From the IMG/VR virus record IMGVR_UViG_3300022865_000043, positions 1 to 23,018 of that record: DNA of 23,018 bases; one strand, written 5' to 3'. The position numbers and the translations under genes were made by a program. How positions within the stretch are numbered: position 1 is the first letter of the stretch; each line of letters starts with the position of its first letter. The notes below the pieces were generated by a model. That model saw nothing but the letters and a program-made list of their open reading frames with translations, was not told the origin of the DNA and did not search any database. This stretch comes from a virus. Below are positions 5,479 through 19,227 of the stretch, piece by piece.

Positions 5479-6015
5479 ATGAAAACAGTAGTACTAGATA
5501 ACTTATTTTCTAAAAAAGAATTATTTTATATGTATAAAGAAATAATAAAAACTCCAAATTGGAGAATAGATGGGCAGTCTACAGACCAAGATGGACATAT
5601 AAGTGGGCCTGTTTTTGTGGTTAAACAAATTAATGAAAAACCTCAAAATTATCCTTTGTTTTTGTGGGGGCAAACTTTAGTTTTTAGAATTAATAAATTA
5701 TTAGAAGAAAAAAATATAGGTATTCCAACTAAATTAAATAGAATGTGGTTTAATTCTACTTCTCATGGTAAAAAAACACAACATTGGCTTCATGCTGATG
5801 ATGAAGATAATTTAAAATTAAAATCAATTTTGTTGTTTATGACTCCTATTTGGCAACCAGATTGGAGAGGATCATTTTATATTGATGGAGAAGAATTTAA
5901 ATTTAAACCTGGCTCTGCTGTTATTTTTGATTCTAAAGAATACCATAAAGGGGAATCACCTGAATCAGAAACATATAATTGGCAAAGAATAACATGTAAT
6001 ATTTTAGTAGGATAA
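5479..6015 (+). CDS. 2OG-Fe(II) oxygenase-like protein 1
   Basis: First gene of the plus-strand island, 178 aa. It fits the double-stranded beta-helix 2-oxoglutarate/Fe(II) oxygenases: H105-A-D107 as the first two metal ligands, H156 (E-Y-H-K-G-E) as the distal ligand, and R170 (W-Q-R-I-T) placed to bind the 2OG carboxylate. Between them, F-K-F-K-P-G-S-A-V-I-F-D is the usual loop and strand before the distal His. Such enzymes couple oxidative decarboxylation of 2OG to hydroxylation or demethylation of a substrate, which cannot be predicted here. The N-terminus (V-V-L-D-N-L-F-S-K-K-E-L) resembles those of the fourth and fifth island genes, suggesting common ancestry. No strong Shine-Dalgarno is seen. 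The next gene starts 1 bp after its stop. Confidence 0.8.
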   Translation: MKTVVLDNLFSKKELFYMYKEIIKTPNWRIDGQSTDQDGHISGPVFVVKQINEKPQNYPLFLWGQTLVFRINKLLEEKNIGIPTKLNRMWFNSTSHGKKTQHWLHADDEDNLKLKSILLFMTPIWQPDWRGSFYIDGEEFKFKPGSAVIFDSKEYHKGESPESETYNWQRITCNILVG

Positions 6016-6016
6016 A

Positions 6017-6562
6017 ATGGATCATTTAGAAGCAATTGTCGAGATAAAAAATGTAGTCTCCACAGAGTTTATAGATAAAATCATACCTTTAATAAATCAT
6101 AAAGCTAAAAAAAATTTAAAAGTTATGGGAGGTTTGGATAAAAATATAAGAAATGTAAAAGGTCATCAGTTAACTTTTAATACACCTACAGATTTATTCT
6201 ATTGGAACTATATAAAACAAGAAATAGAAAGACTTTATACTTATTATAAAATAAAATTTCCTAAGATGATGAGCTCTAAAATCAATCAAATAGATTTATT
6301 AAAATATTCACCAGGGGGAAAATATGAAATACACACAGATCATTTTACTACTTCTATTAGAGCTTTAAGTGTTATTATTAATTTAAATAATGATTATGAA
6401 GGGGGAGATTTAATTTTTACTGATCAAAAAGAAAAAGAAATTAAAAGATTAAAACTTGGAAAAGGTTCAATTGTATTTTTTCCAAGTAATTTTATGTACC
6501 CTCATGGTATTCAACCTATTACGAAAGGAACAAGATACAGTATAGTAGCATGGCTACAATAA
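6017..6562 (+). CDS. 2OG-Fe(II) oxygenase, prolyl-4-hydroxylase-like (PKHD-type)
   Basis: The clearest oxygenase of the island, 181 aa. It has L-L-K-Y-S-P-G-G-K-Y-E-I-H106-T-D108, the Y-x-x-H-x-D core of prolyl-4-hydroxylase-type enzymes. N-Y-E/D-Y-E-G-G-D-L-I-F (125-134) is the conserved G-G-x-L-x-F strand. The distal site is Y-P-H163-G-I-Q-P-I-T-K-G-T-R173-Y-S, with R173 as the likely 2OG-binding arginine. The length suits a stand-alone catalytic domain without an accessory region. Known relatives hydroxylate protein side chains or small molecules, so a phage tail or host surface protein is a possible target. Its end overlaps the next gene's longest reading frame by 13 bp. Confidence 0.9.
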   Translation: MDHLEAIVEIKNVVSTEFIDKIIPLINHKAKKNLKVMGGLDKNIRNVKGHQLTFNTPTDLFYWNYIKQEIERLYTYYKIKFPKMMSSKINQIDLLKYSPGGKYEIHTDHFTTSIRALSVIINLNNDYEGGDLIFTDQKEKEIKRLKLGKGSIVFFPSNFMYPHGIQPITKGTRYSIVAWLQ

Positions 6563-7095
6563 AACTTATGAACAAAAAAACACTTAATATATTATCTATT
6601 GATTGTGATTGGATAACAAATTCTAAACAACAAGAAGAACTTTTAAGTTTTCTTATACCTATAATATATAATAATAAAGATATACATACTGCATACTCAC
6701 ACGAAAAAATATATCCTTTGTTTTCTCATGGTTATGATGAGTACAATTTAATTAATATTGATCATCATCATGATTTTCATTATAATCAAAATTTAAATAT
6801 TTTAAACGAAGGAAATTGGTTGTTTCATTTATCTAATGTATTCAAAAACAAAATTAATTATACTTGGATATCTAACCCTCATTCTAGTTATCTTGAATTA
6901 ATGGAATTTAAAAATTTAAAATCATTTGTTTTTGATCATAATATTAATTATATAAAACAAAAAAAGTTTGATAAAATATTTATATGTTGTAGCCCTGAAT
7001 TTGCTGTTACACCTGAAGTTATTACAGCATACAAAATTATAGAAAGAATTGTTAATGAACGAAAAAACATAGAGCATGACTACAATAAAAACTAA
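6550..7095 (+). CDS. Arginase-fold/UPF0489-like metallohydrolase candidate
   Basis: A 181-aa protein in the midst of the oxygenase genes but unrelated to them. It opens with I-L-S-I-D18-C-D20-W and has N-I-D71-H-H-H-D75-F-H77, then G-N-W-L-F-H-L and a later F-I-C-C-S-P-E-F-A-V-T-P strand. An early Asp strand, a D-x-H-x-D-like metal cluster and a late S-P/D-P strand resemble the arginase/UPF0489 superfamily. From memory, similar uncharacterised proteins occur in marine T4-like phages. Substrate and activity are unknown, and the fold assignment is tentative. The longest frame starts at 6550. The internal ATG at 6568, 5 bp after the preceding stop and seven codons in, is an equally good start because neither has a clear ribosome-binding site. 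It overlaps the next gene by 20 bp. Confidence 0.7.
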   Translation: MATIKLMNKKTLNILSIDCDWITNSKQQEELLSFLIPIIYNNKDIHTAYSHEKIYPLFSHGYDEYNLINIDHHHDFHYNQNLNILNEGNWLFHLSNVFKNKINYTWISNPHSSYLELMEFKNLKSFVFDHNINYIKQKKFDKIFICCSPEFAVTPEVITAYKIIERIVNERKNIEHDYNKN

Positions 7096-7609
7096 AATAA
7101 TAAAAAATTTTTTCGATAAAAAAGAATTACAGATTCTTCATAAATATTGCCATAACAAATTAGATTCAAATAAAGACTATCAATTAGATAGTCAATCATT
7201 TTCACCCGCATGGTACAATGATCCTTTAATGACAAGTTTTTTAGATACGAAATTACCTTTAGTAGAAAAAGAAAGTAATCTACAATTATTTCAAACTTAT
7301 GCTTATTGGAGATATTATGTATTAGGTGCAACTTTAAAACAACATAGAGATAGACCAGCTTGTGAAATAAGTGTAACTGCTTGTATTAAAAAATATGATA
7401 ACTGGCCTTTAGTTATAGAAGGTGAAACATTTGAATTAGAAGAAGGTGATGCACTTTTATATGCTGGTTGTGAACAAAAACATGGAAGACCTGGAGTATA
7501 TAAAGGAGAGGGTATGGCTCAAGTATTCTTTCATTATGTAAATAAAAATGGTCAATATACTAATCATGCTTATGATAATTATATTAAAACAACAGGAAGA
7601 AAAATATGA
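7076..7609 (+). CDS. 2OG-Fe(II) oxygenase-like protein 3
   Basis: A 177-aa protein with L-K-Q-H90-R-D92-R-P as the proximal metal pair, E-G-D-A-L-L-Y-A-G as the strand leading to the distal site, and Q-K-H136-G-R-P-G as the third ligand. No arginine lies at the usual spacing after H136. K143 or a residue in M-A-Q-V-F-F-H-Y-V (147-155) may bind the co-substrate instead, so the 2OG site is less standard than in its neighbours. The N-terminus K-I-I-K-N-F-F-D-K-K-E-L matches the pattern of the first and fifth island genes. It overlaps the preceding gene by 20 bp and the following gene by 4 bp, so these genes are very likely co-translated. Function beyond the oxygenase fold is unknown. Confidence 0.78.
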   Translation: MTTIKTKIIKNFFDKKELQILHKYCHNKLDSNKDYQLDSQSFSPAWYNDPLMTSFLDTKLPLVEKESNLQLFQTYAYWRYYVLGATLKQHRDRPACEISVTACIKKYDNWPLVIEGETFELEEGDALLYAGCEQKHGRPGVYKGEGMAQVFFHYVNKNGQYTNHAYDNYIKTTGRKI

Positions 7610-8154
7610 CAAAAATAATTGAAAAAATAGAAAAAATGACAAAAAATAAACTCGAATTAAAAATAATTGACAACTTTTTTTCACAAGATGAATTAAATAT
7701 TTTAACAAATAATCTTACAAGAATACCTTATATCCCTTTAAAAGATCATTATGGTAAAGGAAATCATTTTGGAATGATCCATGACTTTAAAAAAAATACA
7801 ACAAACCAATGGTTATTTGATAAAATTAAAAAAAATTTTTTTCCTAATATCAATCTTATAGATGTAGAATCAAGATTTACAGTTAGACATAATAAATCTA
7901 AAGTTTTAGCACACGTAGATGACAAGGATTATAATTTTATAGCTTACCTTAAAGGAAAAGAATTAGTTTATAATGGTACTGGTTTTTATCACAATAAAAA
8001 CTTAAATACCTATGTTGGATTTGTCGTAAATAGAGCTATTTTTTTTGACGGTCTAAATAATCATCATACCGATCTTCAAGCTTTAGGAGAAAGTTCAATG
8101 AGATATACATTAAATGTATTTTATGATAAAAGGAGAAATAAAAATGAAAAATAA
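7606..8154 (+). CDS. 2OG-Fe(II) oxygenase-like protein 4
   Basis: A 182-aa protein with V-L-A-H103-V-D105-D as the proximal pair, N-N-H153-H154-T-D as the distal His site (either His could bind), and R166 (S-M-R-Y-T-L-N-V-F-Y) as the likely 2OG-binding arginine. The middle segment V-G-F-V-V-N-R-A-I-F-F-D-G takes the place of the usual strand before the distal His. K-I-I-D-N-F-F-S-Q-D-E-L (19-30) again resembles genes one and four of the island, here after a ~16-residue Lys-rich extension. The ATG overlaps the preceding stop (ATGA) with GGAAG just upstream, which supports this start; an internal ATG at codon 11 is less likely. The substrate is unknown. Confidence 0.75.
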   Translation: MTKIIEKIEKMTKNKLELKIIDNFFSQDELNILTNNLTRIPYIPLKDHYGKGNHFGMIHDFKKNTTNQWLFDKIKKNFFPNINLIDVESRFTVRHNKSKVLAHVDDKDYNFIAYLKGKELVYNGTGFYHNKNLNTYVGFVVNRAIFFDGLNNHHTDLQALGESSMRYTLNVFYDKRRNKNEK

Positions 8155-8758
8155 AAATGCAAAAATAGAAAATTTTATAGGTGTTTATGACAATTATATA
8201 ACCCCTGAAGAATGCAAGGGTCTTATAAAAGTTTTCGAAGATTATTCTAAATTTAATGAAACATTAAATAGAAGACAATGTAATGTAGATTGGCATGTAG
8301 CAAAAGATGAACAATTTTTTTATCACCCTAAAAATGTAAATGTTCATTGGAGTTCATTTAAACAAACAGTTTTTAACTTTGATATTGCTTTTAAACATTA
8401 TCTTGTTAACACTGGAGCTGATTATATGTTATCTGATAAGACCCCTACAGAATATTTTTTTACACAGTTAAAGATACAAAAAACTAAACCAACTGAAGGC
8501 TACCATGTTTGGCATCAAGAACAAGGAAGTACATATGAAACACTTCCAAGAGCTTTTGCTTGGACTGTATATTTAAATGATATTAATGAAGGAGGAGAAA
8601 CAGAATTTCTACATTTTTCAAAAAGAGTAAAACCTAAAACAGGTAGAATAGTTATATGGCCTGCGGGTTTTCCATATTTTCATAGAGGAAATCCTCCTTT
8701 AAAAGGAGAGAAATATATTTTAACATCTTGGATGTTACTTAATAATATTATGGGTTAA
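8144..8758 (+). CDS. 2OG-Fe(II) oxygenase-like protein 5, HxE metal site
   Basis: The start is set at ATG 8144 because AAAAGGAG lies 8 bp upstream; a longer frame from 8114 would add ten residues inside the preceding gene. The 204-aa product has G-Y-H-V-W-H124-Q-E126-Q-G, D-I-N-E-G-G-E-T-E-F-L (147-157), P-K-T-G-R-I-V-I-W-P, and the distal Y-F-H180-R-G-N-P. K190 (G-E-K-Y-I-L-T-S-W) may bind 2OG. This is the prolyl-hydroxylase-like layout, but with Glu in place of the usual Asp in the metal triad, a variant known in some 2OG enzymes. It is the last and longest island gene. Its stop lies 4 bp from the stop of the convergent minus-strand gene, with no terminator between them. Confidence 0.85.
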   Translation: MKNKNAKIENFIGVYDNYITPEECKGLIKVFEDYSKFNETLNRRQCNVDWHVAKDEQFFYHPKNVNVHWSSFKQTVFNFDIAFKHYLVNTGADYMLSDKTPTEYFFTQLKIQKTKPTEGYHVWHQEQGSTYETLPRAFAWTVYLNDINEGGETEFLHFSKRVKPKTGRIVIWPAGFPYFHRGNPPLKGEKYILTSWMLLNNIMG

Positions 8759-8762
8759 AATT

Positions 8763-9155
8763 TTATGATGAATAAGATGTAGGTCTTGCACCTAATCTTG
8801 TAATTTTTTCAGATTCAGTTTCAGTAGAATTACCATCTTCATCTACTACATTGTCATTATCCCAATCAAATTGTAATTGAGTTAAATGCGCTGAATCCCA
8901 TTTATTGCTAAATTGATTAATGTCTCCTAAGTTTGCATCTGCAAATGATGAATGAGGTGTTGTATCTCTATATTCTACTTCGTCAGAAGAATTTGAACTA
9001 CCGTGTTGAATAGCCCAAATATTAGAGAATTTAGAATCAGACCAGAACGAATCATCATTAATAACATATCCAATACCTTCTGAAGCACCTTCATCATGGT
9101 TTTTAATAATGCATTTGTCTTCAAATACTACTGTCCAATTTGCGTTAGTTGCCAT
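8763..9155 (-). CDS. Small tail-region protein, unknown family
   Basis: A 130-aa acidic, polar protein with no membrane segment. The N-terminus N-A-N-W-T-V-V-F-E-D-K is followed by D-D-S-F-W-S and F-S-N-I-W-A-I-Q-H-G. The C-terminal third is rich in Asp, Asn and Glu (F-D-W-D-N-D-N-V-V-D-E-D-G-N). From memory, similar short proteins accompany tail-fibre genes in marine phages, but no function is known to me. A clear AGGAG precedes the ATG. It is the last gene of the right-hand minus-strand block before the inverted oxygenase island and converges with it. It could be a small fibre-tip, chaperone-like or baseplate accessory protein; position is the only evidence. Confidence 0.7.
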   Translation of the reverse strand: MATNANWTVVFEDKCIIKNHDEGASEGIGYVINDDSFWSDSKFSNIWAIQHGSSNSSDEVEYRDTTPHSSFADANLGDINQFSNKWDSAHLTQLQFDWDNDNVVDEDGNSTETESEKITRLGARPTSYSS

Positions 9156-9163
9156 TTTTTCTC

Positions 9164-9754
9164 CTAAGTTTTTATAATATAAATTAAAGTTAAATAAGGT
9201 TGTAATACAGATGGGTTTGCTGTGTTTCCAGAAAAAGTAGCACTCATATTATGAGAGTGACCACCACCTGACCCTGAACTACTTGTGTTTTGATTAATAG
9301 TAGGTCCATTATTTGTTTGGGCTGATATTCTAGGGCTGCTACCAAAAGAAGCAGGTGGTTGCCCACTAATAGAGTGTGAGTGTGATGCAAGTTGAGGTGT
9401 TGATAAAGTAGCATTTGCTGTTGAACCACCTACGTTTCCTGAAGCAGTAACGGGTGCAGTATTTGCTCCACCCGTTGATGCTAAAGCTTTAGTTCCAGAT
9501 TTTCCTACTGGTGTATTGTCTTGTAAATCAGGTGTATTAAAAGTAGTGGATCCATCTCCTGCACCGTAAGTAGTACTTATAATTGCAAATAATGCTGAAT
9601 AAGTTGTTCTTGAAACTGCTACACCATCACATTCTAAAAATCCAGAGGGAACTGATGCTGAAGACCATGGAACAATAGTTGCTGTTGGAATACCTTCTAT
9701 ACCTGTAAGGTTTGCTCCATCAAAATCATATTTAGTTGCTTCGTAATTTGCCAT
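9164..9754 (-). CDS. Tail-collar domain fibre-tip protein
   Basis: A 196-aa protein with a phage tail-collar domain at residues ~22-80: I-V-P-W-S-S-A-S-V-P-S-G-F-L-E-C-D-G then Y-S-A-L-F-A-I-I-S-T-T-Y-G-A-G-D-G-S-T and F-N-T-P-D-L, the standard signature. The Gly/Ser/Thr-rich second half carries two H-x-H motifs, H125-S-H127 and G-H166-S-H168-N, like the metal-binding histidines that hold the T4 short tail fibre (gp12) trimer together. It ends L-Q-P-Y-L-T-L-I-Y-I-I-K, another family hallmark. It is probably a trimeric receptor-binding tip or short fibre. GGAG precedes the ATG, and its stop (TAG) lies by the Shine-Dalgarno of the next gene. Confidence 0.92.
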   Translation of the reverse strand: MANYEATKYDFDGANLTGIEGIPTATIVPWSSASVPSGFLECDGVAVSRTTYSALFAIISTTYGAGDGSTTFNTPDLQDNTPVGKSGTKALASTGGANTAPVTASGNVGGSTANATLSTPQLASHSHSISGQPPASFGSSPRISAQTNNGPTINQNTSSSGSGGGHSHNMSATFSGNTANPSVLQPYLTLIYIIKT

Positions 9755-9755
9755 A

Positions 9756-10454
9756 TTATTTCTCCGTGTATGTCCATCCTGTTGTAGCGTCTCCAGAATA
9801 TACTAATCCAAAAGCTGCACCTTGTGTATTAACTACAAGATCCGCTGCTCCATTAGCTATATTAGAAGAATTTCTACCAACAGTCAATGCGTTAGTGTTG
9901 AAATCATAACTTTGGTCTACAAAATGTACTTCATCACCTATAACAGGACTAGCTGGTAAAGTTATTGTAAAAGCTCCACCATTTGTATTTGCTAAAATTT
10001 TAGCTCCTGCTTGAATTGTTTCTGCTGCAGTAATAGCTCTCCATTTTTTAAATTCTAAATCTTTAATAATATTAGTTCCATTAGAATGACAAAAATAACT
10101 ATTGCCTTCACATAATAAAAAACCTGCTGCACTTGTAACTTTAAAAGTTAAAGTATAACCAGCGTGATTAGTTGAATCAATTACATTAAATACTTTTTCT
10201 AAACTTGCGGGAAAATTTACAGTTCTATTTGCTGCTAAAGTTCCAGTAAATTCTAATGTCATATTTCTTGCATTAGAAATAGTTTTATTAGTCATTGCTA
10301 AAGTTACATCAGCACCTGCAACATCAATCGCTTGATAACCGGCAACAGACTGTTGAATTAAATTTAAGTTATTATTAGTATCAGAACCCCAAGTACCAGA
10401 AGCATCGCCAGTTGCAATTAGTTCTAATTTTAAATCTGAAGAATAAGTTGACAT
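9756..10454 (-). CDS. Tail fibre / receptor-binding-like protein
   Basis: A 232-aa beta-rich protein. The N-terminus (S-T-Y-S-S-D-L-K-L-E-L-I-A-T-G-D-A-S-G-T-W-G) is a pattern I remember from many phage fibre-region proteins. The body alternates short hydrophobic strands with Asn/Gly/Thr turns, and its C-terminal end (W-T-Y-T-E-K) is typical of small fibre or baseplate proteins. It probably forms part of the fibre with the tail-collar protein encoded directly downstream. No Shine-Dalgarno precedes the ATG. Instead a TTTACA/TATAAC promoter-like pair ends 5 nt upstream, so the gene may be transcribed from its own promoter as a leaderless message. It is the first gene after a 61-bp gap in the tail operon. 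Confidence 0.78.
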   Translation of the reverse strand: MSTYSSDLKLELIATGDASGTWGSDTNNNLNLIQQSVAGYQAIDVAGADVTLAMTNKTISNARNMTLEFTGTLAANRTVNFPASLEKVFNVIDSTNHAGYTLTFKVTSAAGFLLCEGNSYFCHSNGTNIIKDLEFKKWRAITAAETIQAGAKILANTNGGAFTITLPASPVIGDEVHFVDQSYDFNTNALTVGRNSSNIANGAADLVVNTQGAAFGLVYSGDATTGWTYTEK

Positions 10455-10459
10455 AATTT

Positions 10460-10488
10460 GTTATATTTTATAAATTTATATTTGTAAA
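10460..10488 (-). promoter_or_regulatory. Putative sigma70-type promoter with leaderless start
   Basis: On the minus strand TTTACA (10483-10488) and TATAAC (10460-10465) are separated by 17 bp, each one mismatch from consensus. The downstream ATG starts 5 nt after the -10 box, so transcription would begin at about the start codon. It lies in one of the few gaps in the operon. The AT content makes chance matches common. Confidence 0.35.
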
Positions 10489-10515
10489 TAATACATATTT
10501 GTATTCATTTGTACA

Positions 10516-11484
10516 CTAAATATTAGTCCAAGTTTCAGTATTATCATCAATAATTGGATCCCAAAATCTTAAATCTACCGGTGTAACAGTCATTTCTTGA
10601 CCTGTTTGAAGAATAAAGTTATTAGTATCAAGTATAATATCATTTAAAGTTATAGTCATCTCTTGACCTGTTACTTTATGAAAACCTTCTGCTTTTATAG
10701 TTATTGAACTTACATTAGCATTAGCACTACTTCCAGTAATAGGAAGTATTTGATCTGTACTAAGTATAAAATCTCCTGTTGAGATATTTAAAATTTGACT
10801 ATTAACAGCAACATTAACAGCAATAGCAGCAATCGTATTTCCTAAAGTAGTATTCAAAGTAAATTCAGGAACTACTACTGTTATAGCTCCACCTGCCGCT
10901 ATTGTGTAAGTTCCTATACTTGTGTTAGTTTGTTGACCTGTAGTAGAAAGAAAGTTATTAGATGAAATAATAAAGTCACTTAAAGAAATAACTGCACCTT
11001 CACCTGTAACTGATATTGCAGCATTACCTATAATGTTTGCAACATTAGATACGAAAGCGGTTACTGATTGACCATCTTCAATAAATATATTTCCATCTCC
11101 AGTAACAACTTCTCCTAATGCTGTACCCCAAGCTCCACTACCCCATTCTTCTCTTCCCCAACCGTTACCAAAATTAAGTTCAAGTTCTAATTGTTGAAGT
11201 CCAGTAATAGTAACTTCTCTACCTTCTCCTGTAGATACACTGTTAATTGATGATGTAATTTGTTGACCAGTAGTAGTTTGATAAACAGAAACTACCGCAA
11301 GAACTCCAGTACTAACGTCACTATTTAAAGCTTGTCCTGAAATTATTGTTAAAGAAGGCGCAGCAGCAAATACATTACCAACAGATGTTGATGATGATAT
11401 TCCTGTAATGACAGCTATTGCGTCAGGTGATGTACCCCATGCGCCTGTGTTCCATCCATCTCTACCCCAACCAACAGTAGCCAT
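10516..11484 (-). CDS. Repetitive beta-rich tail protein with W-G motifs
   Basis: A 322-aa protein, rich in Thr, Ser, Val and Gly. Two matching Trp/Gly motifs, G-W-G-R-D-G-W-N-T-G-A-W-G-T (5-18) and G-W-G-R-E-E-W-G-S-G-A-W-G-T (108-121), each introduce a series of ~25-35-residue repeats. The repeats carry T-G-Q or S-G-Q turns (residues ~49, 72, 138, 182, 272 and 294), suggesting a repeated beta-sandwich or solenoid fibre. It ends L-R-F-W-D-P-I-I-D-D-N-T-E-T-W-T. This is probably a fibre shaft or tail-decorating protein; no enzyme motif is seen. The ATG and its Shine-Dalgarno are both paired in a perfect 9-bp hairpin that includes the preceding gene's stop codon, so translation is probably coupled to that gene. 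Confidence 0.75.
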   Translation of the reverse strand: MATVGWGRDGWNTGAWGTSPDAIAVITGISSSTSVGNVFAAAPSLTIISGQALNSDVSTGVLAVVSVYQTTTGQQITSSINSVSTGEGREVTITGLQQLELELNFGNGWGREEWGSGAWGTALGEVVTGDGNIFIEDGQSVTAFVSNVANIIGNAAISVTGEGAVISLSDFIISSNNFLSTTGQQTNTSIGTYTIAAGGAITVVVPEFTLNTTLGNTIAAIAVNVAVNSQILNISTGDFILSTDQILPITGSSANANVSSITIKAEGFHKVTGQEMTITLNDIILDTNNFILQTGQEMTVTPVDLRFWDPIIDDNTETWTNI

Positions 11485-11502
11485 AAGGAGTTTCTCCTTA
11501 TG
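11482..11502 (-). promoter_or_regulatory. Stop-start hairpin sequestering the ribosome-binding site
   Basis: In the minus-strand RNA, CAUAAGGAG pairs perfectly over 9 bp with CUCCUUAUG across an AAA loop. The 5' arm holds the upstream gene's UAA stop and the AAGGAG ribosome-binding site; the 3' arm ends in the AUG of the 322-aa tail protein. A ribosome finishing the upstream gene would melt the stem and expose the start, a layout for translational coupling. Confidence 0.65.
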
Positions 11503-11917
11503 CTATTCTGATTAAGCCAGCAGATGCGTTAGCAGTTGGAAACTGTAATTCAAAAGTTCCATTTGTAGAAGTTTTAACTCCTCCAAAATCTAAAACTGCA
11601 ATCGCAGCATTAGCACTAGAATTATTGTACAGTAAAGCAGCCTGAGCAGATATAGTTGCATTTGGAAATGTAACATTGTCTGCATCAAAAATTGCAGTAG
11701 TTCCGTCTACAGAGATAGCTACATTAGTTAATGTGTTTCCACCAGCAGTGTAGTTACCACCAGATACTTCAGCACCTGTTATATAAACAGACGTTGTTGC
11801 ATCTAAAGTTGCCGCATTAGTATATAGTGCACATTTAAGAGTTTGAGCAGCAAGGTTTCCACCAGGCGACATCAAGTCTTGTTTAAATACTGTGCAAATC
11901 GCTTGTGTTATTGCCAT
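11498..11917 (-). CDS. Small structural tail/virion protein
   Basis: A 139-aa protein with N-terminus A-I-T-Q-A-I-C-T-V-F-K-Q-D-L, then L-K-C-A-L-Y-T-N-A-A-T-L-D-A-T-T, E-V-S-G-G-N-Y-T-A-G-G, A-A-L-L-Y-N-N-S and A-V-L-D-F-G-G. From memory, this pattern belongs to a widespread small phage structural protein, often labelled tail or fibre protein, with a predicted beta-sandwich fold. No enzyme motif is present. GGAGG lies 9 bp before the ATG, overlapping the end of the adaptor gene, which shows co-translation with the connector genes. It probably links connector or tail to the fibre proteins encoded next. Its stop codon lies inside the hairpin controlling the next gene. Confidence 0.75.
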   Translation of the reverse strand: MAITQAICTVFKQDLMSPGGNLAAQTLKCALYTNAATLDATTSVYITGAEVSGGNYTAGGNTLTNVAISVDGTTAIFDADNVTFPNATISAQAALLYNNSSANAAIAVLDFGGVKTSTNGTFELQFPTANASAGLIRIA

Positions 11918-11918
11918 A

Positions 11919-12578
11919 TTATTGTCCTCCAGTTAATGTGTTTGTACCAACAGGGCTACCTGGAAACTTAAAGTCTGTTCTTCTTCTTCTACGGGCTTCA
12001 TTGTTAACAGTAGCAACTCTTGTATTATACAAATTTGTATATATAGTATAATCTTCTATGTTCTTTGTAAAGAGATTTGCTTGAGCTAAACAACCAAATA
12101 ATAAAACATCTGAAATATTTTCAGTATACCAGTTGGTAGTATTAGTATTAGATAATGGGTTAATTTTTCCTTGATATCCTAGTTTTAAAGTATAAGCTTG
12201 ATCTGGAGTAGGTGCTAAATATACTCGATCATCATCAAAATTAGAAAAATATTTAGGTTGACTTTGAAGAGAAGAATCAGGCCAATATTCTTGACAAAAA
12301 GCTAAAGTTTTTAATTCTAAATAACTTACATTAGAGCCTACTGTAATAGTTAAATAATTAAATAACATAGGCTCGATAGAAGTAGGAAGATTTACAAATC
12401 TATCTCCAGCTACTGCTGTAGTAGTTACGTTTTCATTAAATCCAATAGGGTCTATATCTCTTGATAAAGAATCAAAAGTATTATCTATAAAAGTATCTAA
12501 TTGATTAGTAAAATCAGTTCCTGTATTTTCAGCCCATGTTTGTATATCAGTCTTTAGACTGTCGTATGTCATTGCCAT
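11919..12578 (-). CDS. Head-tail adaptor protein (SU10-type/T7 gp11-like)
   Basis: A 219-aa protein matching the general layout of phage adaptor proteins of the SU10/T7 gp11 kind. It has an N-terminal helical segment (L-K-T-D-I-Q-T-W-A-E-N, F-I-D-N-T-F-D-S-L-S-R-D-I), a central beta part (R-F-V-N-L-P, Y-L-T-I-T-V-G) with L-E-L-K-T-L-A-F-C-Q-E-Y-W-P, then V-Y-L-A-P-T-P-D-Q-A-Y-T-L-K-L-G-Y and a C-terminal helix ending in five arginines. These rings bind the portal and form the tail-attachment platform. The start at 12578 lies 32 bp inside the glycosyltransferase gene. No strong Shine-Dalgarno precedes it, and the ATG two codons later is an alternative. Confidence 0.8.
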   Translation of the reverse strand: MAMTYDSLKTDIQTWAENTGTDFTNQLDTFIDNTFDSLSRDIDPIGFNENVTTTAVAGDRFVNLPTSIEPMLFNYLTITVGSNVSYLELKTLAFCQEYWPDSSLQSQPKYFSNFDDDRVYLAPTPDQAYTLKLGYQGKINPLSNTNTTNWYTENISDVLLFGCLAQANLFTKNIEDYTIYTNLYNTRVATVNNEARRRRRTDFKFPGSPVGTNTLTGGQ

Positions 12579-13359
12579 CTTTAATTACCTCATCAACTTT
12601 AAATTTAGTCCAAACGTGTCCTGCAAATGGATAAGTTCCATAGTGCGTTAAAGGACTTTGAAGATCAGCATGTATCTTACCACCTATTTTTTGCCATAAT
12701 CTACAAAAAGCATAATCCTCTGATAGATATCTATTACTTTTTTCATCAATAATACAGTCAAAAAATGCATAACAATTGTCACTACCATATCTTTTTCCAT
12801 TAACTATTTGATCGCTAGTATATTTAAGATTAGAATAAGCTTCTTTCATCTGATAAAAAACTTCTTTTTTAATACACATAAAACCTGTTGCAGCATCCAT
12901 TACTTCAGTAAAACCACCAGTTAATTCAATTTTATTAGGATCTGCAAAATTTAAATTATAACCTAAAGCTCTTTGTTCTAAATTTTTATCACTTGTTTTA
13001 ATTAAGTCAGGAATTTTATCCCATTCAATAGCTTTTCTAGGATATATTCCACAAGCTATATCATAACCTGATTCTAAAACACGTCTTACAGCTTCTCCTC
13101 TAAATCCTATATCAGCATCAATAAACATTAAATGAGTAAGACTATCATCTTCTTTATCCATATCTAAAAACTGACTGACAATAGTATTTCTAGCTCTTGT
13201 GATTAAACTTTCATTACCAATAGTATTCAATTGAACTTGAAAATTATTTTGAGAAGCTACTCTCGTTAAATCCATTATTCCATGTAGATAAGCTTCTGTT
13301 AATTGACCACCATAACAAGGTGTTCCAATCATTACTTTTAATTTTTTATTTTTTATCAT
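12547..13359 (-). CDS. Putative GT-A family glycosyltransferase
   Basis: A 270-aa protein with the pattern of GT2/Anp1-like GT-A glycosyltransferases. It has an N-terminal strand V-M-I-G-T-P-C-Y-G-G (9-18), a helix with I-T-R-A-R-N (53-58), then H-L-M-F-I-D81-A-D83-I-G-F, the DxD-type metal and nucleotide-sugar site. Next come A-C-G-I-Y-P-R-K, M-D-A-A-T-G-F-M-C-I-K-K, a late S-E-D-Y-A-F-C acidic motif that could hold the catalytic base, and T-H-Y-G near the C-terminus, where a metal-binding His is often found. It overlaps genes on both sides (ATGA with the 149-aa gene, 32 bp with the adaptor), so it is a fixed part of the connector operon. It may glycosylate a virion protein or a host surface component. 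Confidence 0.85.
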   Translation of the reverse strand: MIKNKKLKVMIGTPCYGGQLTEAYLHGIMDLTRVASQNNFQVQLNTIGNESLITRARNTIVSQFLDMDKEDDSLTHLMFIDADIGFRGEAVRRVLESGYDIACGIYPRKAIEWDKIPDLIKTSDKNLEQRALGYNLNFADPNKIELTGGFTEVMDAATGFMCIKKEVFYQMKEAYSNLKYTSDQIVNGKRYGSDNCYAFFDCIIDEKSNRYLSEDYAFCRLWQKIGGKIHADLQSPLTHYGTYPFAGHVWTKFKVDEVIKDGNDIRQSKD

Positions 13360-13805
13360 GTTACAACAGTAACACTTCCTAATCCTATCTGTAACAAATT
13401 TGTGTTGTTAGTATACCAAGAAGTTGGAATAGTTGCAACTCCAACATAAACAGATTGTCCTGATGTATTTTCAAATCCTGGTAAAACAGTTACTTGATTA
13501 GGAACACCACCTGTTTGAGATCCTGGTAATCCTCCACCAGTTCTTGCAGCCTCTGTTGCACTTATACTCGCTTGAGGTCTAGCATTTTGTAAAGTTTGTG
13601 CATCAGTAAAATAAGTTAAATCTAATTGAGGTTGTTTAGGTTCCCACTCTGAAGTATGAACAAACATACCAGTCCATTCAAATACCATTTCTTGATAAGG
13701 AAATGCCATACCTGATCTATCAGATATTGCTAAAGCGTGTCTACCACCTGCAAATTTTGCTGAAGGTGCTCTATGAGGTCTAGTACTTGCTGGAACTCTA
13801 GCCAT
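13356..13805 (-). CDS. Connector-region structural protein, unknown family
   Basis: A 149-aa protein. The N-terminal half is basic and Pro/Gly-rich (R-P-H-R-A-P-S-A-K-F-A-G-G-R-H), followed by F-P-Y-Q-E-M-V-F-E-W-T-G-M-F-V-H. The second half has Gly-rich loops and short beta strands ending L-G-S-V-T-V-V-T. I remember similar F-P-x-x-E-M-V-x-E-W-T-G segments in marine phage proteins beside head-tail genes, but no function is known to me. It sits between the gp4-like protein and the glycosyltransferase, starting with a TAATG overlap and ending with ATGA. A small neck or collar protein is the likeliest role, from position alone. Confidence 0.7.
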   Translation of the reverse strand: MARVPASTRPHRAPSAKFAGGRHALAISDRSGMAFPYQEMVFEWTGMFVHTSEWEPKQPQLDLTYFTDAQTLQNARPQASISATEAARTGGGLPGSQTGGVPNQVTVLPGFENTSGQSVYVGVATIPTSWYTNNTNLLQIGLGSVTVVT

Positions 13806-14494
13806 TACGAATAAAAGCTGTTGCCTGTTGCTGGTATAATTCTAGTAGATGGAGTATCATCACCAGCTATTAATCTTTGATAAGCTTCTTCATAATCTAC
13901 TTTTAATATTTGTTGAGTTTGAGGAGTTACACCTGTTCTTTTTTTAGAAAGATAATAAGCAAGTCCTGCGCACATACATTCGAAAGCTCTAAATGGAACA
14001 TCAATGTTTTGTTCTATTCCACTGACTGTAGAAGCTGTAATATCTTCTATTTTTCTCATACGATAATAAGTAAGAGTATAATTAGTATCAGGAGCTGGAT
14101 AAATTTTAAGTACAGGAGTACTTAATCTTTGTAAATAATATTGTGTAGGTCTAGCTTGAGTAGTTTTATTTGAAATTGCTGCATAGTCATTAAGACCTAG
14201 TGCTGTCATTGCATATTCATTTCCATCACTTGTTTGAATGTTTGCATTTATGATATCTACTGTATCATAATCTAAAGTATATTGAATAGTTCCTGTAGTA
14301 ATAGCTAAAGTTTTATATTCTACAGTCCATTGGTTATAACCTCTGTTAGCCCAATCACTAAACATAATATTCATACTACGTCTAGCTGACCTTACATCAT
14401 AACCTAAAATAGGATCACCACCTATTCTATCATAGGCTTCTTGTATTACATCATTTACTGTTAAAGTAAAAGTTGAAGTTCCTGATAAAGCCAT
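13805..14494 (-). CDS. Head-tail connector protein (P22 gp4-like)
   Basis: A 229-aa protein with the look of P22 gp4-type tail accessory factors. The N-terminal helix V-N-D-V-I-Q-E-A-Y-D-R-I-G is followed by L-G-Y-D-V-R-S-A-R-R-S-M-N-I-M-F-S-D-W-A-N-R-G-Y-N-Q-W-T, a well-known pattern. Next come strands with I-Q-Y-T-L-D-Y-D-T-V-D-I, R-P-T-Q-Y-Y-L-Q-R and L-K-I-Y-P-A-P, and a C-terminal helical part (P-F-R-A-F-E-C-M-C-A-G-L-A-Y-Y-L-S-K-K). In P22, gp4 binds below the portal and seals the packaged capsid. GGAG lies before the ATG. With the SU10-type protein encoded further downstream, this gives the phage two ring proteins between portal and stopper. Confidence 0.85.
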   Translation of the reverse strand: MALSGTSTFTLTVNDVIQEAYDRIGGDPILGYDVRSARRSMNIMFSDWANRGYNQWTVEYKTLAITTGTIQYTLDYDTVDIINANIQTSDGNEYAMTALGLNDYAAISNKTTQARPTQYYLQRLSTPVLKIYPAPDTNYTLTYYRMRKIEDITASTVSGIEQNIDVPFRAFECMCAGLAYYLSKKRTGVTPQTQQILKVDYEEAYQRLIAGDDTPSTRIIPATGNSFYS

Positions 14495-14503
14495 ATTTCT
14501 CCA

Positions 14504-14839
14504 TTATGCAAAAAATGCTGTTACACCATTTATAGTTGCTACATTAGCTCCAGCAACTGTAGATGAAACTTGTATACTTGTTTTAAATTTTATACCATCT
14601 GCTGGTAAATTAAGTTGTACTGTTGAAGCACCCGCAGCTGCATTACCTGTTTCAATATCAAATACATCTGTTCCACCGTCTTTCCAAGTAAGAACACCAG
14701 GAACATCAGTAGGTTCAATAATAAAACCTTTTAATCTCATTGGTCCTCCAAATATAGTAACTGTAGTGGCAACATTTGAAGCTGTATTAGATAATGCTGC
14801 TTTATTTTTACTTACAACATTTATGTCTGATCCTGCCAT
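14504..14839 (-). CDS. Small beta-rich virion protein
   Basis: A 111-aa protein with alternating short strands and Gly/Ala/Asn turns (R-L-K-G-F-I-I-E-P, V-L-T-W-K-D-G-G-T-D-V-F-D-I, I-N-G-V-T-A-F-F-A). There are no charged clusters, signal peptide or membrane segment. The fold is probably a small beta-sandwich, like decoration or head-completion proteins. Its T-W-K-D-x-G-T segment also appears in the 154-aa protein encoded upstream (S-T-W-K-D-V-G-T-S-D-V), which hints at distant homology between the two. AGGAG precedes the ATG and overlaps the preceding gene's stop. Minor capsid or neck protein is the best guess; the exact role is unknown. Confidence 0.68.
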   Translation of the reverse strand: MAGSDINVVSKNKAALSNTASNVATTVTIFGGPMRLKGFIIEPTDVPGVLTWKDGGTDVFDIETGNAAAGASTVQLNLPADGIKFKTSIQVSSTVAGANVATINGVTAFFA

Positions 14840-14848
14840 TTATTTCTC

Positions 14849-15304
14849 CTAAATTAAATTTAATTTTCGTAAGTTTTCATATAATAACCCAACTCTATCA
14901 GAATTGACAGAAGGTTTTAAGTAACTATTTATTAATTCTTTTGCTTGAACACTACCCATATCTATTGGTTTTAAATTAATGTTATCAGTAGTTTTAGAAT
15001 CTAAAGGATTTTTAGGTACCGAAAGTTGTTCTCCACCTCCACTAAAAGTATCAATCACTTTTTCTATACTTTTTAATTTTTTATCTAAATCATCTTCTTT
15101 GTTTTCTCTTTTAACATCAAAAACTTCTTTTTCTCTTTCCATAACATCTTTAGTGGAAAGATCAACTAATTCATCATCTCTTTCTCTAAGACGTTCTGCT
15201 ATTTTTTCATCTAAAGGATCTACCAATTCTTCTCTATCAGTGTCAATATTACTATCTCCAAATGATTTAAAAGCATCACCTATTTTTTTAAAATTTTCAA
15301 ACAT
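14849..15304 (-). CDS. Charged coiled-coil protein, unknown function
   Basis: A 151-aa protein dominated by Asp, Glu, Lys and Arg. Residues ~31-92 form a continuous charged helix (E-R-L-R-E-R-D-D-E-L-V-D-L and D-L-D-K-K-L-K-S-I-E-K-V-I-D-T-F) typical of a coiled coil. A flexible Gly/Pro-rich linker and a second short helical part follow (A-K-E-L-I-N-S-Y-L-K, Y-E-N-L-R-K-L-N-L-I). It may be an assembly factor, a minor scaffold or an ejected protein; no family is recognised. The start codon lies 9 nt after a stable 7-bp hairpin with no Shine-Dalgarno in between, so translation may be weak compared with the capsid genes upstream. Confidence 0.65.
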   Translation of the reverse strand: MFENFKKIGDAFKSFGDSNIDTDREELVDPLDEKIAERLRERDDELVDLSTKDVMEREKEVFDVKRENKEDDLDKKLKSIEKVIDTFSGGGEQLSVPKNPLDSKTTDNINLKPIDMGSVQAKELINSYLKPSVNSDRVGLLYENLRKLNLI

Positions 15305-15313
15305 ATTTTAAAT

Positions 15314-15331
15314 GAGGGCCCGAAGGCCCTC
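15314..15331 (-). terminator. Hairpin with UUCG tetraloop, partial terminator or RNA stabiliser
   Basis: In the minus-strand RNA, GAGGGCC pairs with GGCCCUC across a UUCG loop: seven pairs, six of them G-C, with an unusually stable tetraloop. The following AUUUAAAAU is a poor U-tract, so termination would be partial. It lies between the 154-aa virion protein and the coiled-coil gene. It may lower downstream expression or protect the 3' end of the capsid-region message. Confidence 0.7.
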
Positions 15332-15341
15332 GAATTATTTA

Positions 15342-15806
15342 TTAACTTAAATTAATATTTTGTGCGTAAGTGATAGTTACTATACAAGCACCTGCTGAAG
15401 CGTCTTGGTTTGCTCCATTATAAATAAATGCTATTTTAACATCACTCGTTCCAACATCTTTCCAAGTTGAACATAAACCTGTTACACCTAAGGCAACTGG
15501 ACCTATTGCTGAAATGACTGCGTCATTAACATAAAGATCAGAATTACCTACAATTCCAATATCAAGTAAATCAGTACCTGTATCATTGAAAGCAGTTTCA
15601 ACATTTATATCAAATGATATTATTTGTGAATTTGCTGGTATCACAGTAGTTGTAGTAACATCTGAACCTTCTTGTCCAAAAGCAATAGAAAATTGCTGTG
15701 ACATTACAACTTGTCCTGTATTTTTTACATCTGAACCTAAAGTAGTTCCAGTTGTTTCTTTAATTGTTCCAGCCTTAATTGGGCCAGAAAATGTAGTAGT
15801 TCCCAT
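15342..15806 (-). CDS. Beta-rich virion protein, possible decoration protein
   Basis: A 154-aa protein with an N-terminal F-S-G-P-I-K-A-G-T-I-K-E-T-T-G-T motif that I recall from marine phage structural proteins. Regular strands follow (Q-I-I-S-F-D-I-N-V-E-T-A-F-N-D-T-G-T-D, C-I-V-T-I-T-Y-A-Q-N-I-N), and no enzyme signature is seen. An AAGGAG lies 9 bp before the ATG. The gene is boxed in by hairpins: a strong terminator-like stem upstream, after the capsid gene, and a UUCG hairpin downstream. It may therefore be expressed as a separate unit. Capsid decoration or a fibre-like head protein are both possible. Confidence 0.7.
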   Translation of the reverse strand: MGTTTFSGPIKAGTIKETTGTTLGSDVKNTGQVVMSQQFSIAFGQEGSDVTTTTVIPANSQIISFDINVETAFNDTGTDLLDIGIVGNSDLYVNDAVISAIGPVALGVTGLCSTWKDVGTSDVKIAFIYNGANQDASAGACIVTITYAQNINLS

Positions 15807-15857
15807 AGTCTATCTCCTTATAATAGTCTGCTTTCGCAGTCGTTTGGGTTAGTTTAA

Positions 15858-15889
15858 AATTACTAGGCGTATTGCTACGCCTAGTAATT
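15858..15889 (-). terminator. Rho-independent-like terminator after the major capsid gene
   Basis: On the minus strand a perfect 14-bp stem (AATTACTAGGCGTA and TACGCCTAGTAATT) encloses a GCAA loop of the GNRA type. It begins 8 bp after the capsid stop codon. The RNA continues AUUUUAAAC (the first AUU closes the stem), a short U-run, so termination is plausible but may be incomplete, allowing some read-through to the next virion gene. Confidence 0.8.
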
Positions 15890-15897
15890 GTTTATTA

Positions 15898-16806
15898 TTA
15901 TGCTACGCCTTCAGATCCGTATACACCTCTCCAGTCTGTAAAACCGAAGCTGTATCTTTCTCTGCACTTGTATCTTAAATTACCAGTTTCAAAATCGCCT
16001 TCAACAGCTTTTTTGATTGGTGATCTAACGAAGTGTTTCATTCCATCTGGGCAATCAGTTAGGATAAAATACTGATCAGGGTTAGTAAATCTTTGATTTA
16101 CTACTACACCTTCAGGTATCATACCCATATTTCTCATTGCATTGATATCATTGTCAGCAGTACCAGGTCTTAAATTAGACTTGATAATTCTTTCTGCAAC
16201 GAACACCAATTGAGGTGGAACTGCAAGTTTTCTTCCTGATAACGCAACAGGTATGCTTCTATCATCTACAGCAGTTGAGATTTGAACTAAAAGTGTCTCT
16301 AAAGACGTTTCAGATAAATCCGCAGGTGTGCCTAGGATGTTAGATGCAGTACCACCGCCACCAAGTGGGTGAGAGCCGTTCATTAAAGCTACGCCGTCTC
16401 CTCCAGTTGAAGTAGTAGTTGCATTATTAAAGATATTTGCACCTTTGATCTCTTTAGTTTGTTGCATTGATCTTGCTAGTGCTCTTGCGTATTTAGCGCC
16501 TAGAGAACCGTACAAGCCATCTTCTTCAGCTTCTTCTGTAATCGCAAAAGCTAAAGCGACAGTTTCATGCACATATCTTGAGACAAAGCCTTCTCTGCCA
16601 GAATCATAATTGATCATGGCACCTTCTGCTTTAGTTGGTGCAGCACCGAATCCGATCATTTGTACATCTTCTTCGAATGCTTTCATTGATTGCTCTGTAG
16701 AATATAATGATCTCCATTGCTCAGGATATCTATCATATTCCATACCAAACACGGTGTTTAAACCTAGATTGAGCTGTTTGGTAAAAAGTGCTCTGTTTAA
16801 AGCCAT
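15898..16806 (-). CDS. Major capsid protein, HK97 fold
   Basis: A 302-aa protein and the best capsid candidate of the window. It lies downstream of the scaffold-like and decoration-like genes and is noticeably less AT-rich than most neighbours. Features include N-R-A-L-F-T-K-Q-L-N-L-G-L-N-T-V-F-G at the N-terminus, Y-D-S-G-R-E-G-F-V-S-R-Y-V-H-E-T (a strand region), L-A-R-S-M-Q-Q-T-K-E-I-K-G-A-N-I-F-N-N, G-S-H-P-L-G-G-G-G, the P-P-Q-L-V-F-V-A-E-R-I-I strand, and the terminal R-E-R-Y-S-F-G-F-T-D-W-R-G-V-Y-G-S, typical of Mu gpT-related capsids. AGGAG lies 9 bp before the ATG. A strong terminator-like hairpin follows directly, which fits high expression of this gene group. Confidence 0.93.
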   Translation of the reverse strand: MALNRALFTKQLNLGLNTVFGMEYDRYPEQWRSLYSTEQSMKAFEEDVQMIGFGAAPTKAEGAMINYDSGREGFVSRYVHETVALAFAITEEAEEDGLYGSLGAKYARALARSMQQTKEIKGANIFNNATTTSTGGDGVALMNGSHPLGGGGTASNILGTPADLSETSLETLLVQISTAVDDRSIPVALSGRKLAVPPQLVFVAERIIKSNLRPGTADNDINAMRNMGMIPEGVVVNQRFTNPDQYFILTDCPDGMKHFVRSPIKKAVEGDFETGNLRYKCRERYSFGFTDWRGVYGSEGVA

Positions 16807-16828
16807 TTTTTAACTCCTATTGTTAAGG

Positions 16829-17395
16829 TTAAACACCAGCCTGACGAGTACCATATAGAGATAGATTTATTACTACTTCTACTGATGCGTCAGCGCCTGC
16901 TGCGTTATTTGGATAATCAATTAATCTTAGTATTCTCAAAACTTTTGCAGTCGTTGCAAGAGTTGCGATATCTAATTCATCAGTTGAATGTCCATAGGTT
17001 GAGTTGTACGTTCCAATTGTAACATTAGCTAATTCACCAACATTTGCTGTTGCGAATACGCCGTTAGTTTGGACTGCGTAAGTGATATTTGGATCATCAT
17101 ACACATAAGCTTTAATCGGTTCACCCGATTTTGCTGTTTGTGCATTGTTCCAAACTTTTTTGAATTTAACATCACCAGTGTCATTATCGATGTACTCAAC
17201 ACCATAAAAAACACCGAGAGCTGTACCGCCCGCTGTGCCTCTTATAATTGTTCCATCGGTAGTTAAAGTAACGAGGTCTCCACTTGCAAGATTGGCTGCA
17301 TAGCCATTTGCAATTGCATATTCATTAGCTCTAATAACACCGCCTGTTAAATGTCTCAATGGTACGAAACCATTTGGTGCATCTACATTCGCCAT
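16829..17395 (-). CDS. Capsid decoration/stabilising-like protein
   Basis: A 188-aa beta-rich protein with N-terminus A-N-V-D-A-P-N-G-F-V-P-L-R-H-L-T-G-G, followed by L-A-S-G-D-L-V-T-L and A-L-G-V-F-Y-G-V-E-Y-I-D (turn-rich strands as in small capsid-binding domains). It ends in a strand-rich segment I-N-L-S-L-Y-G-T-R-Q. From memory, this pattern is common directly before the capsid gene in marine phages. It most probably coats or stabilises the capsid. AAAGG precedes the start at a slightly long spacing. Like the capsid gene it is less AT-rich than the late operon as a whole, a sign of high expression. Confidence 0.75.
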   Translation of the reverse strand: MANVDAPNGFVPLRHLTGGVIRANEYAIANGYAANLASGDLVTLTTDGTIIRGTAGGTALGVFYGVEYIDNDTGDVKFKKVWNNAQTAKSGEPIKAYVYDDPNITYAVQTNGVFATANVGELANVTIGTYNSTYGHSTDELDIATLATTAKVLRILRLIDYPNNAAGADASVEVVINLSLYGTRQAGV

Positions 17396-17417
17396 TTTTA
17401 TTTACCTTTGTTAGTTG

Positions 17418-17867
17418 TTAATTGCCGTCCGAACTAACTCTAGATTTAAAAGACCTTTGGATAGGTTGGCCTGGTGTTTCAGCTCTGTTCATGTCCTGTT
17501 CAACTGACTGCATTAAATTGTTAGTCATTTGAGCATAGTAATCATTTCTTTGATTAACCATTTCTTCAGGCATTTCACAAAGTACCATTCCTTCTATTCC
17601 AATATGCCCAGCGAATTTGCCATGTTCTATCGTTGGAAAATGTTGACCATCTTTGACACTTTTAATGTCTCGAGGCTGCCAACCTTCTCTCAACCGTTTA
17701 GCTACATTCGTAGGCGTTTCCTGTCCTAACACCATAGTTGCTACCCATCTCTGAGCGAAACCAGGTCTTGGTTCAGGCGCTTCTAATAAGTTACTCGGTC
17801 GCCATTTTGAAACCATTGTAGATTTTTCTACTCTAGTTTCATTGTTTATTTTATTATCTTTGTTCAT
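17418..17867 (-). CDS. Head-region protein of unknown function
   Basis: A 149-aa protein containing F-A-Q-R-W-V-A-T-M-V-L-G-Q-E-T-P-T-N-V, then R-L-R-E-G-W-Q-P-R and I-G-I-E-G-M-V-L-C-E-M-P-E-E-M-V-N-Q-R. I remember this pattern from small proteins placed between scaffold and capsid genes in many marine phages; their role is not known to me. The C-terminus is polar, with Q and M. It has one of the strongest ribosome-binding sites in the window (AAAGGAG, 9 bp before the ATG), suggesting that large amounts are made. It may assist scaffold or capsid assembly. Confidence 0.72.
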   Translation of the reverse strand: MNKDNKINNETRVEKSTMVSKWRPSNLLEAPEPRPGFAQRWVATMVLGQETPTNVAKRLREGWQPRDIKSVKDGQHFPTIEHGKFAGHIGIEGMVLCEMPEEMVNQRNDYYAQMTNNLMQSVEQDMNRAETPGQPIQRSFKSRVSSDGN

Positions 17868-17883
17868 AATGTCAGGCTCCTTT

Positions 17884-18819: not shown

Positions 18820-18836
18820 AGTTTCTCCTATGTTGG

Positions 18837-18854
18837 CATTAACCTAAGTTAATG
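18837..18854 (-). other. Small perfect hairpin in GroES-scaffold gap
   Basis: CATTAAC and GTTAATG form a 7-bp stem around a 4-nt loop in the 39-bp gap between the GroES-like and scaffold genes. There is no U-tract, so it is not a classic terminator. It might be a processing or stability element. Confidence 0.4.
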
Positions 18855-18858
18855 TATG

Positions 18859-19227
18859 TTACAGTTGTTGAGTTACTACTTCTGGACTTTCCAAAGTTGC
18901 AATAATCTCATCATCATTTAATAGCACCATTTTTACTTTTTGTACAGAAACTCTTGCTCCTGCATATCTACCAAAAATAACCCAATCTCCTACTTTACAC
19001 CAAGGATTTTTTCTATCACTATAACATTCTGGTCCCATAGCAATAACTTGTCCTACACTATTTAAGTAAGCTTGATTATCTTGTGAAGAATCTGATAAAA
19101 TTATTCCACCTTTAGTTTTTACTACTGCTCCTCTAGGTCTAATTAATATTCTATATCCTACTGGTTGTGGTAATTTTTTAGGTGTTGGGATTTCATTATC
19201 TGTTGCCCATGCTTCATTACTATTCAT
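18859..19227 (-). CDS. Phage GroES-like co-chaperonin (Cpn10)
   Basis: A 122-aa protein with the 10-kDa chaperonin fold pattern: V-G-Y-R-I-L-I-R-P-R (23-32), a mobile loop V-V-K-T-K-G-G-I-I-L (35-44) whose I42-I43-L44 matches the GroEL-binding Ile-Val-Leu of E. coli GroES, V-G-Q-V-I-A-M-G-P (58-66), K-V-G-D-W-V-I-F (78-85) and the final D-D-E-I-I-A strand (105-110). It has extra residues at both ends and a C-Y-S-D-R-K-N-P-W-C insertion before the V-G-D segment. As with T4 gp31, it probably partners host GroEL to fold phage capsid proteins. AAGGAG lies 9 bp before the ATG, and the start overlaps the upstream small gene by 8 bp. Confidence 0.92.
   Translation of the reverse strand: MNSNEAWATDNEIPTPKKLPQPVGYRILIRPRGAVVKTKGGIILSDSSQDNQAYLNSVGQVIAMGPECYSDRKNPWCKVGDWVIFGRYAGARVSVQKVKMVLLNDDEIIATLESPEVVTQQL

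Follow-up and report, generated by a model that had tools for sequence, protein, structure and literature searches.

A hairpin spanning stop codon, Shine-Dalgarno sequence and start codon at a putative tail-gene boundary in relatives of HTVC027P-like pelagiphages

The window, namely the whole stretch of DNA analyzed here, is a virus record of 23,018 bases. The gene order on its minus strand includes the genes for a portal (phrog_1216), a head protein (phrog_371), an SU10-type adaptor (PF24175, E 5.6e-24; 11919..12578) and a 139-aa protein (11498..11917), followed by a gene for a 322-aa WG-repeat protein (10516..11484), the genes for a 232-aa protein and a collar-domain protein (PF07484), and a 130-aa gene. 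The same succession of similarly sized and annotated genes was found in the cultured Pelagibacter phage HTVC027P (gp67-gp71). The 322-aa protein had neither a PHROG nor a Pfam match and its structure model was unusable (pLDDT 41), and we regard it as a putative tail fibre or adhesin part from its position and the synteny with HTVC027P gp68. The 139-aa protein matched phrog_644, a family of unknown function, with an E of 4.9e-21, and its AlphaFold model had a mean pLDDT of 80. Foldseek alone retrieved no significant match to this model (best E 0.24), and a PDB sequence search with the protein gave no match. In the second-look alignment by VIA-align, the top 12 rows were all chains of phage tails, baseplates, necks or fibres with Z of 6.4-9.7 (7.3 for the GP4 fibre-tail adaptor) and the first row thereafter dropped to 3.9; note that Z under 8 can reflect merely a shared arrangement. 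Judging from the structure model, the 139-aa protein is likely a virion adaptor. Amid the minus-strand virion genes, six successive plus-strand genes encoding 177-214 aa occupy positions 5479-8758. The 2OG-Fe(II) oxygenase family PF13640 was detected in three of the six (6017-6562, E 8.5e-18; 8114-8758, E 1e-10; 5479-6015, E 9e-4, the last being below the cut-off), and no Pfam match was found for the other three.

The 139-aa and 322-aa genes are on the same strand, and the stop of the former is separated from the start of the latter by 13 nt. The minus strand from 11502 to 11482 reads CAUAAGGAG-AAA-CUCCUUAUG and forms a perfect stem of 9 bp (9/9 Watson-Crick pairs) with a 3-nt loop, precisely as the original prediction described for this boundary. 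The 5' arm (CATAAGGAG; 11502-11494) contains the UAA stop of the 139-aa gene (11500-11498) and the Shine-Dalgarno (SD) sequence AAGGAG (11499-11494), all bases of which are paired, and is followed by the loop AAA (11493-11491) and the 3' arm (CTCCTTATG; 11490-11482). The AUG start of the 322-aa gene (11484-11482; like the stop, assigned from the sequence and the ORF list) makes up the base of the 3' arm, 9 nt after the SD sequence. The stop, SD and AUG are thus all in the stem as predicted, but the prediction counted AA twice, since the stop and AAGGAG overlap and read UAAGGAG. In the outer three pairs, AUG faces CAU, which consists of the CA of the GCA codon and the U of the stop. The assignment of the whole element (11482..11502, minus strand) rests on sequence, fold, conservation and covariation.

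The hairpin alone has a dG of -9.9 kcal/mol. When the start regions (-30 to +6) of 19 gene boundaries in the window were folded, only the boundary at 15342/15304 (-14.7) was more stable than the hairpin boundary (-11.3). The 106-nt surroundings of the hairpin were ordinary in overall stability, with a z of -1.49 and 19 of 200 shuffles being equally or more stable. Both closure of the start site and a reach into the zone read by the upstream ribosome are present at the hairpin boundary. A structure closing the second start is common in translationally coupled gene pairs, albeit not required. Other structures were noted in the window: a GC-rich hairpin (15313-15332) at the junction of the 154-aa and 151-aa genes, which lies in the most stable of the 19 start regions, a perfect 14-bp stem with a 4-nt loop situated 9 nt beyond the stop of the head-protein gene (15858-15889), and a stem of 7 pairs (with G-U permitted) where the 111-aa and 229-aa genes meet (14494-14506), close copies of which occur in loci L011, L016, L019, L043 and L044.

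The stem had been proposed to be unlikely by chance. The window contains three distinct perfect stems of at least 9 bp with loops of 3-8 nt, which amount to five entries when counted per loop size, two of them with a 3-nt loop, and 60 dinucleotide shuffles of the window gave on average 1.28 entries (0.15 with a 3-nt loop). A 9-bp stem by itself is therefore not very rare in such DNA; what upholds the proposal is that its exact position on a boundary is rare and that the stem is conserved. Because of this, the case rests on position and conservation, and the proof against chance is the conservation, not the 9-bp stem alone.

We assembled 331 loci from four protein searches (best 80 loci each), 11 loci of a phage collection and the window. 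Seven loci had no stop or nearby start, leaving 324 usable loci, and 265 were retained after the removal of duplicates. A hairpin was scored when a stem of at least 7 bp (G-U allowed) with a loop of 3-8 nt had its 3' arm ending at the AUG. Such a stem was found at the boundary in 145 of the 265 non-redundant relatives of the upstream gene; this share is not an unbiased prevalence, as each of the four queries was itself from a locus with the hairpin, although the protein searches were blind to it. Among unique boundary strings, 77 of 166 carried the stem, whereas elsewhere in these loci it was found at 12 of 416 boundaries (Fisher 3e-36, with relatedness inflating the counts), and 136 of 5300 spacer shuffles reached the same threshold. 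The 5' foot of the stem lay 2 nt ahead of the stop in 94 of the 145 hairpin loci; in the remaining 51, it was 2-6 nt downstream of the stop's first base. The stem was found in 48 of 169 loci with a downstream gene of family 0, 20 of 43 with family 2 and none of 48 with family 1 (NDRVKE type), and the median dG was -9.7 kcal/mol for the 77 hairpin boundary strings versus 0.0 for 34 strings of family 1. Nine more distant relatives with family 0 or 2 genes (L310, L311, L374, L415, L416, L420, L422, L423 and L427) had no start-site stem of 6 bp. A protein search of 50,697 phage records gave 15 matches including HTVC027P, HTVC023P and five Roseobacter phages, and blastn of the phage collection with the region gave no match. 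The hairpin was absent in 10 of the 11 loci fetched from the phage collection, and one of these ten, L211, had no start within 50 nt. The stem of HTVC027P reads TAGGAGG/CCTCCTA, and HTVC023P has no hairpin. Altogether, the hairpin is widespread in the relatives of HTVC027P-like pelagiphages.

In scans with sequence patterns, the element was concentrated at this one boundary. The pattern TAAGGAGNNNCTCCTTATG was found at no fewer than 120 loci in 2.9 million viral contigs, and 118 of the 120 among the matches listed had, by eye, both a downstream ORF and the upstream C-terminus of the 139-aa family; the other two were a locus ending just past the AUG (L178) and an unrelated one (L173). The family profile recovered a member in 114 of the 120 listed loci, and the upstream gene was cut at the contig end in five of the six misses. 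The second pattern, TAGGAGGNNNCCTCCTATG, gave 112 loci, 105 of which had the family profile upstream, and each of the remaining seven lacked an upstream ORF of 40 aa, a downstream ORF of 60 aa or both. A control pattern with a shuffled stem was found at two loci. In bacterial genomes, the hairpin pattern occurred at 31 scattered loci, only one of them with this gene pair, namely a contig in a Maricaulis MAG (L506), where a phrog_644-like gene precedes the pattern. The variant with a compensated stop, TGAGGAG...CTCCTCATG, was considered as further support and rejected, as none of those listed among its 33 loci was at this boundary. Its palindrome (L213-L245) recurs in other phages, where most of the sites listed fall within a single GC-rich gene (MLGPVLERLHNELL...).

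A lack of covariation in relatives had been named as an outcome that would refute the original prediction. This refutation did not occur, and stems of other sequences with two-sided changes were found at the same boundary. The variants (5' arm/3' arm) comprise C(A/G)TAAGGAG/CTCCTTATG, C(A/G)TAGGAGG/CCTCCTATG and C(A/G)TAATAGG/CCTATTATG, as well as CATAGGAGA/TTTCCTATG and ATAGGAAG/CTTCCTAT. In the 126 boundaries with downstream families 0 and 2, for which the hairpin was not a selection criterion, the arms paired at 6.44 positions with their own partners versus 5.04 +- 0.12 with permuted ones (0 of 5000 permutations as high), and family 2 alone gave 1 of 5000. No excess of pairing was found for the 29 boundaries of family 1 (3.66 vs 3.83). 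Across 38 distinct stems, two-sided changes occurred in 35 cells versus 11.7 +- 2.6 in shuffles, 88.3% of the cells were paired versus 80.3, and the covariation score was 0.388 versus 0.225 (0 of 500 shuffles in each case); in this test the register was fitted, part of the change reflects movement of the SD with respect to the AUG, and relatedness inflates the counts. There was no excess in the number of pairs with any two-sided change (5 of 9 vs 4.0 in shuffles; 135/500) or in further pair types (11 vs 10.1; 153/500), and slid partners paired in 33-68% of the cells. The loop triplet varied freely, with 15 kinds in the 118 loci among the matches listed. We consider it very likely that selection acts on the RNA structure.

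The coding side of the stem pointed in the same direction. The last sense codon of the upstream gene is often Ala, the third base of which stands opposite the U of the AUG in the stem type of the window. All 92 hairpin loci with an Ala codon had a purine at this silent position, compared with 39 of 64 loci without a 7-bp stem (Fisher 7e-12, or 6e-4 against families 0 and 2 only, relatedness uncorrected), and the 118 loci found by pattern among the matches listed used GCA 98 times, GCG 19 times and GCC once. Contrary to the purine rule, T preceded the stop in 4 of 99 stems of at least 6 bp that include the stop; four such stems of 6 bp are from family 1 and resemble chance pairings. When both types of mismatch were permitted, the stems contained 66 G-U versus 12 A-C, a difference to which base composition could have contributed. 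The retention of G-U, the rarity of A-C and the purine at the Ala wobble position together suggest that the element acts as RNA rather than DNA.

The hairpin survives the exchange of the downstream gene. The window and the loci L009 and L016 shared 0.98 identity over the last 150 coding bases of the upstream gene and 1.0 over the spacer, but identity fell to 0.48 and 0.53 past the ATG; random 150-mers have a mean of 0.48 and a maximum of 0.55. A quick tree built from 203 upstream proteins required a minimum of 33 changes of downstream family and 22 changes of hairpin state, and this state was mostly the same between families 0 and 2 (7.5 of 9 supported pairs). For family 1, six supported independent pairs were available, of which 2.2 were in the expected direction, 3.8 showed no difference and none was opposite; the tree test of a link between the hairpin and the downstream type was not significant over these six supported pairs (median p 0.5). 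The distribution over loci is suggestive of a link between the absence of the hairpin and the NDRVKE-type downstream gene.

Such a junction, with upstream gene and hairpin nearly identical and the downstream gene different, as well as the frequent changes of the downstream family, would also be expected if the palindrome were a DNA element, i.e., a recombination site or a shared link for the swapping or inversion of tail genes. Invertible tail-fibre switches with hix- or gix-type sites have their site twice per genome, the second copy being inverted. The window holds one exact copy of the hairpin site, and in 12 further records of 18-58 kb at most one copy per record was found at 0-1 mismatches (seven with one, none with two), the window and most of the records being possibly fragments. 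Matches with three mismatches were equally common for a reversed control pattern, the bias toward G-U over A-C is what RNA would show, and the genes of family 1 follow the same upstream gene without the hairpin. We thus regard a DNA element as very unlikely.

Hairpins between phage genes often serve as signals for mRNA processing or stability or as transcription terminators, and the same could be asked of this one. An intrinsic terminator combines a GC-rich stem with a T-run behind it. No T-run follows the stem and coding sequence comes directly after it, and the hairpin is absent among the 13 terminator-like sites listed for positions 8000-20000; a hairpin for stability has no need to hold both SD and AUG. 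No Rfam family matched the window above the curated cut-off. We give next to no credence to this explanation. Ribosomal bypassing or readthrough was also rejected: the stop (counted from its first base) and the ATG are 16 nt apart and in different frames, and this distance varies, being 10-24 nt in all but two relatives.

The coat-protein operator of phages MS2 and R17 at the replicase start is a small hairpin with the SD in its 5' part and the AUG in its 3' arm, and its loop and bulge are read by the protein. The layout of SD and AUG is shared by the hairpin found in this study, and a phage protein, perhaps a virion part, could accordingly bind it and repress the downstream gene. In contrast to the MS2-type operator with its conserved loop, the loop is free and the sequence of the stem changes here, which leaves little for a protein that reads sequence. 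We therefore consider a protein operator highly improbable.

With selection on the RNA structure, we propose that the hairpin probably serves as a lock on the start site that makes the 322-aa gene depend on ribosomes finishing the 139-aa gene, a reading based on the arrangement and variation of the sequences. The selected hairpin would close the entire start site of the downstream tail gene, and with SD and AUG paired, free 30S subunits would rarely initiate. A ribosome at the stop of the 139-aa gene would occupy the foot of the stem and have to melt it; all 145 stems start between -2 and +6 nt from the first base of the stop, which means that the foot must already be open when a ribosome is on the stop. 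Given the size of the ribosome, a terminating one would cover the nearby SD and AUG as well, and a fresh 30S subunit could bind only once it is gone, when the stem can refold. The tail protein would hardly be made from an mRNA whose upstream gene is unread.

A simpler possibility is a plain damper, in which spontaneous opening of the hairpin sets a low rate of initiation of the tail gene and upstream translation matters little. The paired SD and AUG and the median dG fit this equally, and structure directly past the stop can hinder coupling, its presence there having correlated negatively with coupling in one screen covered in the review by Brown and Wade (PMC12548453). As reading of the stop is incompatible with a standing stem, and a damper has no need to reach into the upstream codon, whose wobble base nevertheless follows the pairing, we regard the damper as unlikely, albeit this counter-evidence is not decisive, since short spacers force the stem and the stop close together anyway.

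The proposed coupling lock agrees with the established principle that start-site structures are opened by upstream translation (reviewed in PMC12548453). In the account of that review, the mechanism of coupling is not firmly established and restart by the same ribosome versus entry of a new ribosome after unfolding is still open. Refolding competes with a new ribosome and, where genes are close, a second ribosome can start only after the first has left (PMC12548453); for these reasons, the main route here would be restart, a few bases on, by the just-terminated ribosome or its 30S subunit. The same review reports that a larger gap weakens coupling in several systems and that +13 nt abolished it in one study. 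A transcriptome of HTVC027P is available (PMC12753301), and the gp67/gp68-type pair is not mentioned in the sections examined.

Known systems share parts of the proposed lock. In MS2 coat/lysis, f1 VII/IX and rpmI-rplT, a second start closed by structure is opened by translation of the first gene; f1 VII/IX has a long hairpin with a spacing of -4 nt, MS2 an overlap (-50 nt) and rpmI-rplT a spacing of +52 nt, according to the pertinent parts of the review (PMC12548453). The boundary analyzed here differs in that stop, SD and start share a single local hairpin of 21 nt, whose pairing has been maintained through matched changes in a large group of phages, the coupling itself being inferred. Termination-reinitiation at overlapping or nearly touching genes is alike in that the same ribosome may serve both genes, but the pairs described in the parts of those studies covered (PMC6728339, PMC10666635) overlap or adjoin closely, whereas the gap of 13 nt is filled by a hairpin here. 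At the level of titles and the openings of abstracts, with most subscription journals outside the scope, no description of this element was found in the literature, and the word 'hairpin' occurs 0 times in the portion of PMC9599517 covered. We read the hairpin as a new, widespread form of the known translational coupling by a start-site hairpin.

Same-ribosome restart would imply a cap near one for one, and for each molecule of the adaptor-like upstream protein, no more than roughly one tail protein would be made. The original prediction went further and held that the hairpin fixes the ratio of two virion parts. The resemblance of the 139-aa protein to a tail or adaptor part is in line with this, but the 322-aa protein is without a family match and the NDRVKE-type relatives do without the hairpin, and thus a fixed ratio of the two proteins is plausible only. 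We tentatively extend the proposal to a portable gate for one ribosome. Because stop, SD and AUG are all under it, only the terminating ribosome could start the next gene, and each upstream chain could be accompanied by at most one downstream chain; because the hairpin belongs to the locus and not to either protein, unrelated tail genes swapped into the locus would take the same stoichiometry. This extension is possible, yet we hold it with considerable doubt.

As the unfolding ribosome would physically cover the start site, the two models of coupling predict different outcomes at this boundary, and the many natural variants of the stem and the relatives free of the hairpin constitute a ready test series. 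A covarying RNA element is now assigned to widespread and barely annotated ocean phages, and it may represent a possible rule for the matched expression of exchangeable tail genes.
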